Below the pieces are notes generated by a model, which was not told the DNA's origin, did not search any database, and saw only the letters and a program-made list of their open reading frames with translations. DNA of 64,000 nt, from assembly GCF_009828115.1 (NCBI RefSeq), contig NZ_WTYL01000003.1, positions 134,501 to 198,500 of the forward strand, in the 5' to 3' direction. Numbering within the stretch: the first letter of the stretch is position 1; every line of letters starts with the position of its first letter. This stretch comes from Allopontixanthobacter sediminis. Its GTDB lineage: Bacteria; Pseudomonadota; Alphaproteobacteria; Sphingomonadales; Sphingomonadaceae. Below are positions 4,646-10,068 of this stretch, one piece after another. The position numbers and the translations under genes are program-made.

Positions 4646-5545
4646 ATGAATATTTTCACCAGAGGGCCGCTGATGCTCTCGCTGTTCGCCGCACTTGCCA
4701 TCCCTGCATCTGGCGGACTGTATGCGCAGCAGCAGCAGCAGCAGCAGCAGGAAATGCAATCCGAAGGCGAGGTCATGGCGACCGTCTACGGCACCCCGCC
4801 TGCCGATCTGTCCGGCATGACCGAAGGGCCGGAAATTGAAGGTTTCATCTCGGCGCGCGGCGATAACAACATGCAGGTGATGGGCGCCGACGGCACCAGC
4901 ACCATCGTCCATATCAGCGAAGCTACCGAGATCAGGTCCAAGGGCGGTTTCCTCGGCCTCAACAGCGACAAGCTCGCCGCAGCCTCGCTGCTGAACGGCC
5001 TGCCGGTATCCGTCGAAACTGTGCAATGGGGACGCGGTCTGGTCGCCAGCCGGATCGATCTCAAGACCAAGGACCTCAAGACGGCCACCATGATCCGTAC
5101 CGGCACCTCGCAGGGGTTTGCCGAACAGACCGCAGCGACCGAAGCGCTGCGCGGCCGCATGGGCGACATCGACAAGTACAACATCAAGGGCACGACCAAC
5201 GTGAACTTCGACACCGGCAAGGCCGTGCTGTCCGAACAGGGCAAGGCCGACCTTTGTGCCGCGGCGAGCCAAGCCGAAGCGATGGACAACGCCTTGATGC
5301 TGGTGGTCGGTTACACCGATTCGACCGGCAGCCAGGAATTCAACCAGGAACTGAGCGAAAAGCGTGCGAGCCGGGTGGTCAACTACCTCCAACAGGCGTG
5401 CGGCTGGAAGCCGTACCGAATGCTGACCCCGACCGGCATGGCCGAAGCCGACCCGCTGGCGGATAACGAAACCGCATATGGCAAGGCGCAAAACCGCCGG
5501 GTCGCGGTGAATATCCTGGTCAGCAAGAGCGTCGATGGCTTCTAG
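4646..5545 (+). CDS. OmpA-family cell-envelope protein
   Basis: The 299-residue protein has a signal peptide (residues 1 to about 27) followed at once by a run of eight glutamines. A central region of about 120 residues resembles an OB/beta-rich domain and was not assigned to a family. The C-terminal OmpA-like peptidoglycan-binding domain covers about residues 185-290, with NVNFDTGKAVLSEQGKADL and the NRRVAVNI ending typical of OmpA/MotB. A strong ribosome site GAAGGAG lies 8 bases before ATG 4646. The protein probably sits in the periplasm or outer membrane and binds peptidoglycan. It is monocistronic and ends at a bidirectional terminator. The 263-base stretch upstream shows no other gene. 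Confidence 0.87.
   Translation: MNIFTRGPLMLSLFAALAIPASGGLYAQQQQQQQQEMQSEGEVMATVYGTPPADLSGMTEGPEIEGFISARGDNNMQVMGADGTSTIVHISEATEIRSKGGFLGLNSDKLAAASLLNGLPVSVETVQWGRGLVASRIDLKTKDLKTATMIRTGTSQGFAEQTAATEALRGRMGDIDKYNIKGTTNVNFDTGKAVLSEQGKADLCAAASQAEAMDNALMLVVGYTDSTGSQEFNQELSEKRASRVVNYLQQACGWKPYRMLTPTGMAEADPLADNETAYGKAQNRRVAVNILVSKSVDGF
4727..4750 (+). repeat. (CAG)8 trinucleotide tract encoding polyglutamine
   Basis: Eight perfect CAG units in frame encode Gln8 immediately after the predicted signal-peptidase site of the OmpA-family protein. Because the unit is three bases, changes in copy number alter linker length but not reading frame. Confidence 0.95.
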
Positions 5546-5601
5546 GTTGTACCAAGTACTATAATGCGACGAGCGGGTGTAATCCCCGCCGCCCAAAAAA
5601 A

Positions 5602-5635
5602 GCCCCGCCTCCTTTTCGGGGGGCGGGGCAGTTTT
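5602..5635. terminator. Bidirectional rho-independent terminator
   Basis: A GC-rich stem (GCCCCGCC paired with GGCGGGGC) is followed on the plus strand by AGTTTTC. It is preceded by a run of seven A, which gives a T-run on the minus strand. It lies between two convergent genes and can serve both. Confidence 0.85.
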
Positions 5636-5656: not shown

Positions 5657-7030
5657 CTAGCGGCGGGCCATCCGGACGCTCTTGTCGACAGATCCGGGTA
5701 ACGGGGTCGCTGCGGCATAGGCGATGCAGCCGTACCCGCGGGCGGTAAGACCCGAGCACATCGAGCGGGCTTCGCTCTTGCCCATGTCGCCAGCCGCGAC
5801 GCGCCAATACGTCTTTCCGTTCACGCGGGCTTCCGAGATCATCATGTCGTACTGGTTCAAATTGGCATAGCGCTTGGCGTAGATGCCGATCGCGCGCTGC
5901 GCCAGTTCCCTGGTCGAAAACGAGCCGAGCTGGATCATGTGATCGCCGCGCTTCACGGTTGCTCGTGCGGTCCGCGCCGGAGCTTTCTGGGGAGCGGGCT
6001 GGGTTTGGACCACAGCAGGCTGCGCCTTGGTCGCGGCCACCGGAGCGGATGCCGCAGAGGCGAATGCATCGCTGAAATTGGCAGGTTTGGTTTCCGCACG
6101 TGCAGGGACGAGCGCGGCGAGCGGACGGGCCACCGGTGGCGCGATTTCGCGCACAGCGGGTGCTTCGGCAGCTTCCTTTGCGGCCATGTAATTTGCGAGC
6201 GCGGGCAATTCGCGCGGGGCGCTGACGGCAGCCATCACCGCCGGCGCTTCGGGAGTTGCTACCGGAAGTTCGGCCGCTGCCTCGGCTACCATCTGCTCGG
6301 TGCTTGGTGTGTTGGCCAGCGCAAGTTGTACGGGCTGCCCGCTGTCGCCCACCACCGGAACTTCGAGCAGTTTTGCCACGCGGCGATGAGTATCTTCGGG
6401 CGCGATGGTGCTGGCCCATTCTGCGATCCGGTCATTGATCTGGTTACCGGGGACGTCTTCTGCTGCCATCACCCTGGCAGAGCGCCAGTCACCCTTCAGT
6501 GCGAAAGCATAGGCAAGGTTCTGACGGGTCTTGGCATTGCTTTGTCCGCTGCGGATCGCGTTGGAAAGGATGTGCACACCCTGATTGGCATCCCCGGACA
6601 ACGCGAACGCCAGACCGAGATCGGCCGGATCCAGATCGTCCCGGTATTCGGTCAGCAGCGCGTGCGCCGAGCGGCCATCGCCCGCAGCAATTTGCGCCAG
6701 CGCAAGGCTGAGCGCGGTGCGCGGGCTGTCATCGCCAAGCGCGCGTGCATCGCTGAAACTGGTCACCGCCGACTGGAACCGGCCGGCCTCCATGTAGGTC
6801 GCGCCCAACATGGCGCGGTATGCGGGGTTGCGGGGATCGGCGAGGACTGCGGCTTCTGCATGGTTCAACGCCCGTCCGGATTCCCCTTTGGCCAACGCGG
6901 TTTGCGCTTTGCTCGCGGACATATCGGCGCGCGGTGCGGCAGTGGTCGTACAACCGCCCAGCGCCGAAGTGGCGAGGGCGGTCGTGACGGCCAGCGTGAC
7001 GAAGCGGGCGTTATGTGCGGATCGGCTCAT
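5657..7030 (-). CDS. TPR and SPOR domain lipoprotein-like protein
   Basis: The 457-residue protein starts with a signal sequence ending in SALGGC (Cys27 or so), a plausible lipobox. TPR-like helices cover about residues 40-190 (NPAYRAMLGATYMEAGRF). A long Ala/Pro-rich linker follows, and a C-terminal SPOR domain spans about residues 360-440 (HMIQLGSFSTRELAQRAIGIY). SPOR domains bind peptidoglycan strands stripped of stem peptides, mostly at the division septum. It is the last gene of the parA / RHH operon, with a 14-base gap to the gene before it. A divergent gene 3 kb away encodes a second SPOR protein. The exact role is unknown. Confidence 0.85.
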   Translation of the reverse strand: MSRSAHNARFVTLAVTTALATSALGGCTTTAAPRADMSASKAQTALAKGESGRALNHAEAAVLADPRNPAYRAMLGATYMEAGRFQSAVTSFSDARALGDDSPRTALSLALAQIAAGDGRSAHALLTEYRDDLDPADLGLAFALSGDANQGVHILSNAIRSGQSNAKTRQNLAYAFALKGDWRSARVMAAEDVPGNQINDRIAEWASTIAPEDTHRRVAKLLEVPVVGDSGQPVQLALANTPSTEQMVAEAAAELPVATPEAPAVMAAVSAPRELPALANYMAAKEAAEAPAVREIAPPVARPLAALVPARAETKPANFSDAFASAASAPVAATKAQPAVVQTQPAPQKAPARTARATVKRGDHMIQLGSFSTRELAQRAIGIYAKRYANLNQYDMMISEARVNGKTYWRVAAGDMGKSEARSMCSGLTARGYGCIAYAAATPLPGSVDKSVRMARR

Positions 7031-7044
7031 GGTCAGTCCCCTGT

Positions 7045-7905
7045 TCAGCTATTTTCGGTGCCATTGCGCTGCACCTGGGCGGCCAGCGTGGCGAGTTCGG
7101 GCATGTCACCCAGAAAAGCATCGAGCGCGTCGGTCACGATCTGCTGCGCGCTGCGGCCGCCGATGGTGCTGGCCAGACGTAGCTTGAGGTGCCGTTCGGC
7201 ATCGAGACGAAGCGTGAACGCCGCCCGTTTGCCCTGATCCACCGCGGCGACCCGCCGGGTGCGGACCGTCTTCGGCGCCTTGACTGCGATGATCCGGGGC
7301 GCTTCGTATCCGGCGAGATCGGCAACGCTGGACTCCGCCAGATTTTCTGCGCCGTCCTGAAGGTCACTTTCGCCGAGGCCGTAGTCGGCTTCCGCGATAT
7401 ACTCGGCGGCATTCCCGAGGTCGTAGATCGATTCATCGCCGAACGGTTCGGACCCGTCTTCGAGTTCATCCTGCGGCTCGTCATCGTTGGACATGATCGC
7501 GTCGGACAGGATCGGCGGGGATTTGCGTTCGAGTCGCCGGGCCAGGACTTCCTGCTGCCCGCGCGCGTCGCCCGCGCCGCCATTGCCGAGCGGATTGCTC
7601 GAAACTGCGAATTCCGCCAGCTTTGCGCCGGACTGTTCATCGAGTTCGCGTGCTTCTGCAGCGGTTACTTCGTTTGCCGGAAACGGCGTCAGTTTGAGCG
7701 GCTCATGGTCCTGGTGCGGCGCGAGTTCGTCGCCCATGTCGTTCCAGCCCAGATCATCCAGGCTTTCTTCCGAAAAGGAATCGGTCCCGGAACCGGAGCC
7801 GATCGAGCCGAGCAATCCGCCATGCTGCGGCCGCATGGCTGGCCGGGCACCGCCCTTGCGGGCGAGCAGATTCGGACTCAGGGAGGCAAAGGAAGCTTCG
7901 TTCAT
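7045..7905 (-). CDS. ParA-associated protein with C-terminal ribbon-helix-helix-like segment
   Basis: The first 200 or so of the 286 residues are low-complexity and acidic (many Asp, Glu, Gly). A basic patch, roughly residues 205-230, leads into a C-terminal segment, FTLRLDAERHLKLRLAS, followed by two predicted helices. That is the pattern of Arc/MetJ-type ribbon-helix-helix DNA-binding domains, which include partner proteins of ParA ATPases. I infer a ParB- or ParG-like adaptor; no named family was recognised. The start is uncertain: ATG 7905 has GGTAGAG upstream, but GTG 7926 overlaps the parA stop as GTGA. The gene sits between parA and a TPR/SPOR gene. Confidence 0.72.
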   Translation of the reverse strand: MNEASFASLSPNLLARKGGARPAMRPQHGGLLGSIGSGSGTDSFSEESLDDLGWNDMGDELAPHQDHEPLKLTPFPANEVTAAEARELDEQSGAKLAEFAVSSNPLGNGGAGDARGQQEVLARRLERKSPPILSDAIMSNDDEPQDELEDGSEPFGDESIYDLGNAAEYIAEADYGLGESDLQDGAENLAESSVADLAGYEAPRIIAVKAPKTVRTRRVAAVDQGKRAAFTLRLDAERHLKLRLASTIGGRSAQQIVTDALDAFLGDMPELATLAAQVQRNGTENS

Positions 7906-7922
7906 GATGGCTCTACCAGTGC

Positions 7923-8639
7923 TCACTGAGCAACGCGGCGACCGAAGCCGCCACCGGGACGGCTTGCTCCCGCAGCCTGCGCGGCCATGTTAGGAGCTGC
8001 AAATACGGTACGGCGAAAATTCTTTTCGAGCCGGTCGGCTATGTAGTTCCACAGGGCGGCAACCTCTGCGGAGGAGCGGCTACCGGGATCGACTTCCATG
8101 ACCGTGCGGCCATCGATCATCGAGGCGGCGAAATCGGTCCGGTGATGGAGAGTGATGGGGGCAACGGTGCCGTGCTGTGACAGGGCAACTGCGGCTTCCG
8201 AGGTGATCTTGGCCTTGGGGGTAGCGCCGTTGACCACGAAGACCAGCGGCTTGCCGGCCCGTTCGCACAGGTCGACGGTGGCACCTACAGCGCGTAAATC
8301 GTGCGGACTGGGGCGGGTCGGGACAACGATCAGTTCCGCAACTCCGATTACCGACTGGATGGCCATGGTAATGGCCGGGGGCGTGTCGATTACCGCTAGT
8401 TTGAAACCCTGCTGACGCAGGATCTGCAAGTCGGATGCGAGCCGTGCAACCGTGGTTTGGGCGAAGGCGGGATATTCCGCCTCCCGCTCGTTCCACCAAT
8501 CGGCGGTCGAGCCTTGTGGATCGATGTCGATCAAGACCACCGGTCCTGCTCCGGCGCGCTGCGCCTGGACGGCCAGATGGCCTGAGAGCGTGGTCTTGCC
8601 AGATCCACCCTTCTGCGAAGCTAATGCCAGTACACGCAA
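7923..8639 (-). CDS. Orphan ParA/MinD-family ATPase
   Basis: The 238-residue protein has the deviant Walker A motif KGGSGKTT at residues 10-17, including the signature Lys10. It also has the DIDPQGS switch region and IDTPPA. Such ATPases position cargo (DNA, chemoreceptors, division or pole complexes) on the nucleoid or membrane. The start is TTG 8639, supported by AGGGGGAT just upstream; no better in-frame start exists. The expected parB and gidA/B neighbours of the chromosomal parAB locus are absent, so this is a separate, orphan ParA. It is followed by an RHH-like protein and a TPR/SPOR protein, which suggests a cell-cycle or envelope positioning role. Confidence 0.88.
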   Translation of the reverse strand: MRVLALASQKGGSGKTTLSGHLAVQAQRAGAGPVVLIDIDPQGSTADWWNEREAEYPAFAQTTVARLASDLQILRQQGFKLAVIDTPPAITMAIQSVIGVAELIVVPTRPSPHDLRAVGATVDLCERAGKPLVFVVNGATPKAKITSEAAVALSQHGTVAPITLHHRTDFAASMIDGRTVMEVDPGSRSSAEVAALWNYIADRLEKNFRRTVFAAPNMAAQAAGASRPGGGFGRRVAQ

Positions 8640-8949
8640 AGCGCGATCCCCCTGAAATTCCGTATGTCGTCACCGCACCACTGCGGGTCGACCTCGGAGA
8701 TCGCAGGATACAACTAATTTTGAGTTAACGCTGGCGGGCACTTGTTTCGCCCGAAGATGAATATTTGGCTGTTTTGGGTGGGCTTCTTGATTGGCGCGCA
8801 AGATTTGGCTGCCAAAAAATTACCGGAAAAGAAACTCTTTGCTAACAGGTCGTTTACTATGACAGGTCAGCGAACAGGCCGATTACGCGGCCGGAGCAGC
8901 TCTGGGACCGCGGCTTGGCCGGCCGGTGCAAAATGGGATCTGTGGACCG
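8640..8949. other. Divergent intergenic region between parA and the SPOR/Sel1 gene
   Basis: These 310 bases separate two outward-facing genes and must hold both promoters. The middle is AT-richer than its surroundings (around 8700-8870), including GAGTTAACG near 8716. I see no convincing gene, RNA or repeat. A 105-codon frame beginning at 8742 runs into the downstream gene in the wrong frame and lacks family features. Confidence 0.5.
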
Positions 8950-10068
8950 ATGATGGATACACGTGGTTTTTTATACGCTTTTTGCCTCTGCGCGGCTGTC
9001 AGCGCAGCGCCAGCGCTGGCGGATGTAAAAGCGGGCGTCGATGCATGGACTGCGGGTGATTACGCCGCTGCGGTCCGTGAATGGCGTGAACCCGCCGCGA
9101 AAGGCGATCCCGATGCGCAGTTCAACCTGGCGCAGGCGTACCGTCTGGGCCGCGGGGTGGAGGCCGATCCGGCACAAGCCGAAGTGCTGTATGCCAAGGC
9201 TGCGGCGCAGGGCCATCTGAAGGCGGCGGATAATTACGGGCTGCTGCTGTTTCAGGACGGTCGGCGAGAAGCCGCGATGCCGTATCTTACCGCCGCGTCG
9301 GAACGCGGTGATCCGCGCGCCCAATATCTCATTGGCCTGGCGCATTTCAACGGGGACCTGCTGCCCAAGGATTGGGTGCGCGCCTATGCCTTGCTGACCT
9401 TGTCCAACTCGGCGGGCCTGCCGCAGGCGGCGCCCGCGATCAAGCAGATGGACAGCTTCATTCCGCGCGAACAGCGGGAACAGGCTCAGACCTTGGCGCA
9501 GGCTCTCAATCGCGACGCCGATGCCGCGCGCTCGGCGCAATTGGCCGCAGCCGACCTCGGCGCGGATATGCCAAGCCAATCGGTTGCGCCGGCCGCCGTC
9601 GCGGCCGTACCCTCACCACCTGCCGCGACACCGATTCGCTCCGCATCGGCACAGTCTTCCGCCGAAGCGGCCCGGGATGCGATTTCGGCCGCATCGCAAG
9701 CAACGGGTACGGAGAATCCCGCCAATGCCGGTGCGGACTATGCCCGGCCTGCCCGCCAGGCGGCTGCGTCCACGCCAGAACCGGACCCGCAGAAAGCCCC
9801 GGTCCGCACCGCGCAGGCTTCCAAACCGCCCGCTGCCCCGAATGGCGTGTGGAAGGTTCAACTCGGTGCATTTTCAGTCGGCGGGAATGCGGAAAAGCTG
9901 TGGCGCCAGCTGTCATCACGAAGCGAACTGGCGGGGCGAACCCGTCTGCTGGTTTCAGCGGGCAATCTGACCAGGCTGTTGGCCGGGGGGTATCCGAGCC
10001 AAGCCGCCGCCAATCAGGCCTGCGCGAGTCTCAAGCGAGCCGGCCATAGCTGCCTGGTGACGCGTTAG
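8950..10068 (+). CDS. Sel1-repeat and SPOR-domain periplasmic protein
   Basis: The protein (372 aa from ATG 8950, or 371 from ATG 8953) begins with a cleavable signal peptide ending in AAPALA. Sel1-like/TPR repeats cover about residues 30-185 (DAQFNLAQAYRLGRGVEADP is a textbook Sel1 unit). An Ala/Pro-rich linker follows, and a C-terminal SPOR domain covers about residues 295-370 (WKVQLGAFSVGGNAEKLW). It likely acts in the periplasm at sites of septal peptidoglycan. It faces the parA operon, whose last gene also encodes a TPR-plus-SPOR protein, so the locus has two related envelope proteins flanking a ParA ATPase. Confidence 0.87.
   Translation: MMDTRGFLYAFCLCAAVSAAPALADVKAGVDAWTAGDYAAAVREWREPAAKGDPDAQFNLAQAYRLGRGVEADPAQAEVLYAKAAAQGHLKAADNYGLLLFQDGRREAAMPYLTAASERGDPRAQYLIGLAHFNGDLLPKDWVRAYALLTLSNSAGLPQAAPAIKQMDSFIPREQREQAQTLAQALNRDADAARSAQLAAADLGADMPSQSVAPAAVAAVPSPPAATPIRSASAQSSAEAARDAISAASQATGTENPANAGADYARPARQAAASTPEPDPQKAPVRTAQASKPPAAPNGVWKVQLGAFSVGGNAEKLWRQLSSRSELAGRTRLLVSAGNLTRLLAGGYPSQAAANQACASLKRAGHSCLVTR

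Follow-up and report, generated by a model that had tools for sequence, protein, structure and literature searches.

A four-gene cassette in Allopontixanthobacter sediminis, located in a 64,000-nt stretch of contig NZ_WTYL01000003.1 (hereafter the window), encodes a ParA ATPase, a partner protein with a predicted C-terminal ribbon-helix-helix (RHH) domain, a putative TPR-SPOR lipoprotein and, divergently, a putative periplasmic Sel1-SPOR protein. With somewhat better than even confidence, we read it as a type Ib (ParF/ParG-type) cassette that resides on the chromosome, is inherited vertically, stems from a plasmid partition family and cooperates with septal SPOR proteins in the course of the cell cycle. 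SPOR domains are associated with this ParA lineage in two ways, by neighboring genes in sphingomonads and by direct fusion in other families. How the nucleoid is coupled to constriction and septal wall remodelling in bacteria is an open question, for which the cassette offers a concrete and testable candidate.

The ParA ATPase and its partner

All four genes are open reading frames at the expected place (window 5657-10068; Table 1), as a preliminary description of this DNA had proposed. The ParA protein carries a deviant Walker A motif (QKGGSGKTT) at about residue 10 and is short, without an N-terminal helix-turn-helix, as are type Ib ATPases (about 190-240 amino acids, closest to ParF). Its best PDB matches were the ParF-type structures 5u1g and 4dzz (E 1.4e-14). 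It also matched NF041546, 'ParA family partition ATPase' (E 1e-47), with 161.9 bits, below the curated cut-off of 180, while PHROGs returned a generic ParA match and one unknown family and nothing else. The match to the MipZ family PF09140 amounted to only 33 bits, over residues 3-54, and does not place the protein in that family. A true MipZ (374.5 bits to PF09140) is encoded separately in the genome, as is a Soj-type ParA; the cassette ParA therefore belongs to an additional system and is distinct from the usual ATPase of chromosome partition.

The partner gene begins 17 nt past the parA stop codon. Conservation places its start at ATG 7905, a correction of the open reading frame, which opens at GTG 7926, and is concentrated at the two ends of the protein. 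A Pfam scan of the protein gave no match, ParB included, whereas an orthologue profile found ParG as its best PDB match (E 3e-4). AlphaFold predicted a C-terminal core with a confident helix pair and a third helix (pLDDT 91-98), preceded by a disordered tail and linker, and the top Foldseek matches of this core were almost all RHH proteins (CopG, Arc, AtaR), with E-values of 0.3-3 that are weak because the domain is small. Furthermore, a Sphingomonadales relative of the partner passes the Pfam RHH_1 cut-off. The RHH assignment, which the preliminary description had also made, is carried mainly by the ParG sequence match and by this relative. Thus an apparent RHH partner with a flexible N-terminal tail lies directly downstream of ParA, as in type Ib systems, and not the ParB with CTPase and helix-turn-helix domains, plus parS, of a chromosomal ParABS system. 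That description had also called the ParA an orphan; because its partner and family have now been identified, a truly orphan ParA is ruled out, and the two proteins form a ParF/ParG-type pair with plasmid relatives.

The closest described counterpart is ParF-ParG of plasmid TP228 (type Ib), which supplied the best PDB relatives of both proteins. There too, a short ParA without an N-terminal DNA-binding domain is followed directly by its partner gene, and ParG likewise joins a flexible N-terminal tail to a C-terminal RHH domain. In contrast to ParF-ParG, the cassette is chromosomal, single-copy and vertically inherited, and has fixed SPOR neighbors and a CtrA-type promoter; no centromere repeats were seen in the spacers searched, and its partner has 286 amino acids with a long linker, against 76 in ParG. 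Pairs on small plasmids (Comamonas pZM22-2, Deefgea, Xanthomonas pXCV19 and E. coli p2017.17.01CC_2) have ParAs that are about 57-66% identical and, immediately downstream, partners of 80-114 amino acids with an RHH-like end; unlike the cassette, they sit beside replication genes and lack SPOR genes. McdAB and other ParA/MinD cargo-positioning systems follow the same principle, a nucleoid ATPase and a partner with a basic N-terminal peptide (PMC12204374, PMC10241942), but differ from the cassette in cargo and partner. MipZ resembles the cassette ParA as a division-linked alphaproteobacterial ATPase of the ParA/MinD type, and is a distinct gene in this genome.

Two variations on the partner were seen outside Sphingomonadaceae. 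A CxC end (CACL, CPCL, CSCL or CICG), possibly a metal or redox site, frequently follows the RHH domain there (L167-L175, L160, L155, L264-L268) and is missing from Sphingomonadaceae partners. At L160, the gene that directly follows that of the tagged RHH partner (L160:5761-6297) codes for a small protein whose C-terminus holds a single membrane segment; the protein contains an ASLSANLI stretch reminiscent of the N-terminal tag described below and may be a membrane anchor variant.

The N-terminal tag and tagged SPOR partners

At its conserved N-terminus the partner has the sequence FASLxxxLLARKGxAKPAMRPQ, which contains a short tag, ASLtxxLLARKGxAxP. RHH partners of other alphaproteobacteria begin with this tag too; in an 18-row alignment of RHH-type, membrane-SPOR-type and plasmid partners, L9, L13, K17, G18, A20 and P22 were invariant. 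Plasmid partners with the tag accompany ParAs of Comamonas, Deefgea, Xanthomonas, E. coli and Pseudomonas, the last three in a shorter variant. Within the A. sediminis genome it occurs on the partner only (E 1.5e-11, next match 2.0): it is absent from the genome's other three SPOR proteins, and a search for a hidden membrane SPOR partner or any other second tagged protein found none. In a studied system, binding and activation of the ParA ATPase depend on a peptide at the partner's N-terminus that consists of aliphatic and basic residues (PMC12462528). McdB likewise relies on basic residues to bind and activate its ATPase (PMC12204374), and ParG does so through its tail (PMC7308502). The tag matches these activating peptides in position and character, and because of this analogy we propose that it is the ParA-docking element. 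Its invariant K17-G18 may correspond to the basic motif with which type Ib partner tails stimulate their ATPase.

In at least four families of other alphaproteobacteria (f9, f17, f109 and f130), the gene beside a ParA of the same clade encodes a protein consisting of the tag, one membrane segment and a C-terminal SPOR domain. The SPOR domain scored above the Pfam cut-off in 6/6 proteins scanned, and the single membrane segment is strongly hydrophobic (mean hydropathy 2.0-3.0). Clusters of K and R precede this segment, which implies a cytosolic tagged N-terminus and a periplasmic SPOR domain. A ParA of this clade was found in 34 of 40 genomes of f17, and the tagged partner at 24 of the 30 loci read there, one of these cut by a contig end. 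In some genomes (G158, G271, G355) the ParA is present twice, paired once with an RHH protein and once with a SPOR protein. In the pairs with a membrane-SPOR partner (G158, G271, G355, G150 and relatives) the ParA is about 58-64% identical to that of the cassette and the partner carries the same tag together with SPOR. These are joined in one polypeptide that has no RHH domain, whereas the tagged RHH protein and the SPOR proteins of sphingomonads are separate. Since tag, membrane segment and SPOR make up one polypeptide in these families, the idea that ParA and SPOR proteins work together gains independent support.

In Pfam, the cassette's own TPR-SPOR protein matched SPOR with 35.7 bits, above the cut-off, and TPR_19 with 35.6 bits, and its lipobox Cys27 was retained in 65 of 81 aligned orthologues. 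The Sel1-SPOR protein matched Sel1 (44.6 bits) and SPOR (54.6 bits), both above cut-off, and has a conserved signal peptide that points to a start at ATG 8950 or 8953; the open reading frame begins at GTG 8926. With PF05036 above cut-off and an apparent export signal (lipobox or signal peptide), both are predicted to be exported SPOR proteins. In one Sphingomonadales genome (L270:5652-6911), the C-terminus of the cassette's TPR protein is not SPOR but OmpA, likewise a domain that binds peptidoglycan.

No description of a ParA with a SPOR partner was found in the literature searched (open-licence papers), and the text of a survey of ParA/MinD systems mentions neither SPOR nor RHH partners (PMC10241942). 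ParA with an RHH partner is already known; a chromosomal version with a CtrA-type promoter and SPOR genes was not found in the open-licence literature, and neither was a membrane-spanning SPOR partner bearing a ParA tag.

Conservation and promoter of the cassette

Conservation was assessed in 80 named Sphingomonadaceae loci, from genera including Erythrobacter, Qipengyuania, Novosphingobium, Sphingobium, Sphingopyxis, Sphingomonas and Sphingorhabdus, of which 67 had enough flank for the gene set to be counted. The arrangement of the window was intact, with all four genes, at 62 of these 67 loci, which is far beyond chance; the partner and the TPR-SPOR gene were each kept at all 67. In five Erythrobacteraceae loci (L067, L074, L086, L095 and L109) Sel1-SPOR alone has been lost and the other three genes are kept. 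The gene set also occurs in distant families of Sphingomonadales, in some with reshuffled order. In family f5 (L264, L266), the SPOR genes have relocated relative to ParA and are still present, with SPOR, Sel1 and TPR domains confirmed. Conservation across Sphingomonadales had been proposed earlier as a check, and the gene set was indeed conserved across the order, even where the local order was shuffled. A ParA orthologue was found in 167/199 Sphingomonadales genomes, and its median identity in the family (89%) exceeds that of PyrB (78%) and Der (73%). We also considered a mobile element or plasmid remnant; this was ruled out for sphingomonads, because ParA is single-copy in every genome listed and is widely present.

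A candidate CtrA-type site lies upstream of parA. The motif TTAAC-N6-TTAG was present at 70 of the 80 loci, against 0.03 expected in shuffles, about 64-126 nt upstream of parA. A putative -10 element, CTGCGAT, follows it, and the spacing between the two was exactly 7 nt in 42/42 loci that have both. In Caulobacter, the fliQ site reads CTAA-N7-TTAA, and CtrA sites typically overlap the -35 region (PMC11264516). The box TTAA-N7-TTAG is the reverse complement of the fliQ site and agrees with the TTAA-N7-TTAA type of site, near -35, that marks promoters of the CtrA regulon; the CckA-ChpT-CtrA relay is retained in Sphingomonadales (PMC2877005). These features suggest that CtrA may bind at the cassette promoter. 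A weaker box, possibly a degenerate CtrA site, faces the Sel1-SPOR gene; its motif, TTAGCAAA, was found at 30/80 loci, against 0.27 expected.

Proposed mechanism and alternative readings

On the favored reading, ParA-ATP dimers would spread across the nucleoid, as in the ParF family, and the partner would dimerize through its C-terminal RHH domain, probably while holding DNA. Docking of the tag on the ParA dimer would trigger ATP hydrolysis, by which the partner and its load may be moved or evenly placed. By analogy with the SPOR family, both SPOR proteins, the lipoprotein with TPR and the secreted one with Sel1 repeats, would gather at the septum on denuded glycan. Binding of CtrA to the observed box could time ParA, partner and TPR-SPOR jointly, and the outcome would be a nucleoid or cargo position coordinated with late septation. 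In the other alphaproteobacteria, ParA would meet SPOR directly, since there the SPOR protein spans the membrane once and exposes the docking tag at its cytosolic end.

A broader proposal, which we hold tentatively and at slightly less than even confidence, is that this ParA lineage gained a trans-envelope class of partners, its docking tag having been exchanged between RHH proteins of plasmids and membrane-spanning SPOR proteins. An ATPase on the nucleoid could then sense or position peptidoglycan factors of the septum, so that nucleoid position and septal wall would be linked directly, by mechanics or by signalling; in sphingomonads, the RHH and SPOR parts of this link would be separate proteins timed by CtrA. 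The cassette itself appears to be a plasmid partition module turned core chromosomal device. Its ParA is near-invariant and widespread, and peptidoglycan-binding domains recur at the ends of its partners or in proteins that accompany them; the short tag offers a way to predict ParA partners from sequence.

Several results weigh against coupling of ParA to the SPOR proteins under CtrA control. No protein that bridges cytosolic ParA to the SPOR proteins of the periplasm or outer membrane was found in sphingomonads, where the tag occurs on the RHH partner only, and this missing inner-membrane bridge is the weakest point of the coupling idea. The positioning system of ParA and SPOR proteins that the preliminary description had envisaged is accordingly backed by the tagged membrane-SPOR partners elsewhere, and no physical bridge was found in the sphingomonads themselves. 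On the ParA tree, at least three changes are needed to account for SPOR-type partners, with modest support; this weakly favors separate acquisitions, and a single origin is also compatible. A centromere search in the operon spacers returned only two-copy direct repeats of 11-13 nt, of chance quality. The CtrA-type box was not found outside Sphingomonadaceae. Genome-wide, TTAACN6TTAR occurs at 8 sites, and just one further perfect box lies at a typical CtrA target, cheR, beside a GGDEF-EAL gene; with so few perfect sites and one other typical target, CtrA control rests on the motif and its spacing. A census of perfect boxes as proof of a CtrA regulon was dropped, 8 sites being too few to inform.

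The missing bridge would also fit a different account, in which ParA and the RHH protein, as a domesticated module, serve to partition DNA through a site on the chromosome, and the SPOR genes share promoter timing only and perform a separate envelope job. The kinship with ParF/ParG, the plasmid relatives and an RHH strand pattern that suits DNA binding agree with this account. It does not explain why the gene set has been retained despite shuffled local order or why tagged SPOR proteins of the membrane accompany this ParA lineage in other families, and no centromere-like repeats were found in the spacers searched; we consider it rather unlikely. Alternatively, ParA might mainly control the division machinery from the cytosol in the manner of MipZ or PomZ; the RHH partner would then sense the nucleoid, and the SPOR proteins would act downstream at the septum. 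We regard this as improbable: MipZ and a Soj-type ParA are already encoded elsewhere in the genome, and neither ParA nor its partner showed an identifiable FtsZ-interacting feature, even if envelope genes expected at the septum, a CtrA-type promoter and a ParA of the nucleoid-binding ATPase family would all be in keeping with such a role. Least probable of all is that the four genes travel together through shared history, without common function, for while pyrBC, sppA, DUF418, bacterioferritin and der are also kept around them in close relatives, the four remain together in Sphingobium, Sphingopyxis and Sphingomonas, where those neighbors have moved off, and in distant families as well, and other families have the tag and SPOR fused in one protein.

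Table 1. Features of the cassette, in window coordinates. Operon order on the minus strand: parA, partner, TPR-SPOR; the Sel1-SPOR gene is divergent.
Feature	Position	Strand	Remarks
TPR-SPOR lipoprotein (predicted)	5657-7030	-	signal peptide, lipobox Cys27, TPR about 40-127, linker, C-terminal SPOR 361-437
ParA partner, 286 amino acids	7045-7905	-	from ATG 7905; N-terminal tag, disordered linker, C-terminal RHH (predicted)
RHH domain (predicted), AAFTLRLD...RHLKLRLA...SAQQIVTDALDAFL	7102-7230	-	ParG PDB match, AlphaFold, Foldseek
Proposed ParA-docking tag, MNEASFASLSPNLLARKGGARPAMRPQ	7825-7905	-	invariant residues in 18-row alignment
ParA ATPase, ParF-like, 238 amino acids	7923-8639	-	start TTG 8639
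Putative -10 element, CTGCGAT	8700-8706	-	7 nt after the CtrA-type box
CtrA-type box, TTAACTCAAAATTAG (TTAA-N7-TTAG)	8714-8728	-	89 nt upstream of parA
Weaker box, TTAGCAAAGAGTTT (minus-strand reading)	8832-8845		faces the Sel1-SPOR gene; possibly degenerate CtrA site
Sel1-SPOR periplasmic protein (predicted)	8950-10068	+	signal peptide ending AAPALA-D

On the TPR-SPOR side, the cassette adjoins a gene for an OmpA-family protein (window 4646-5545), which was not detected at that place in the 80 relatives examined. Between these convergent genes lie overlapping GC-rich inverted repeats with A/T tails (window 5581-5635), which are likely to form a bidirectional terminator.

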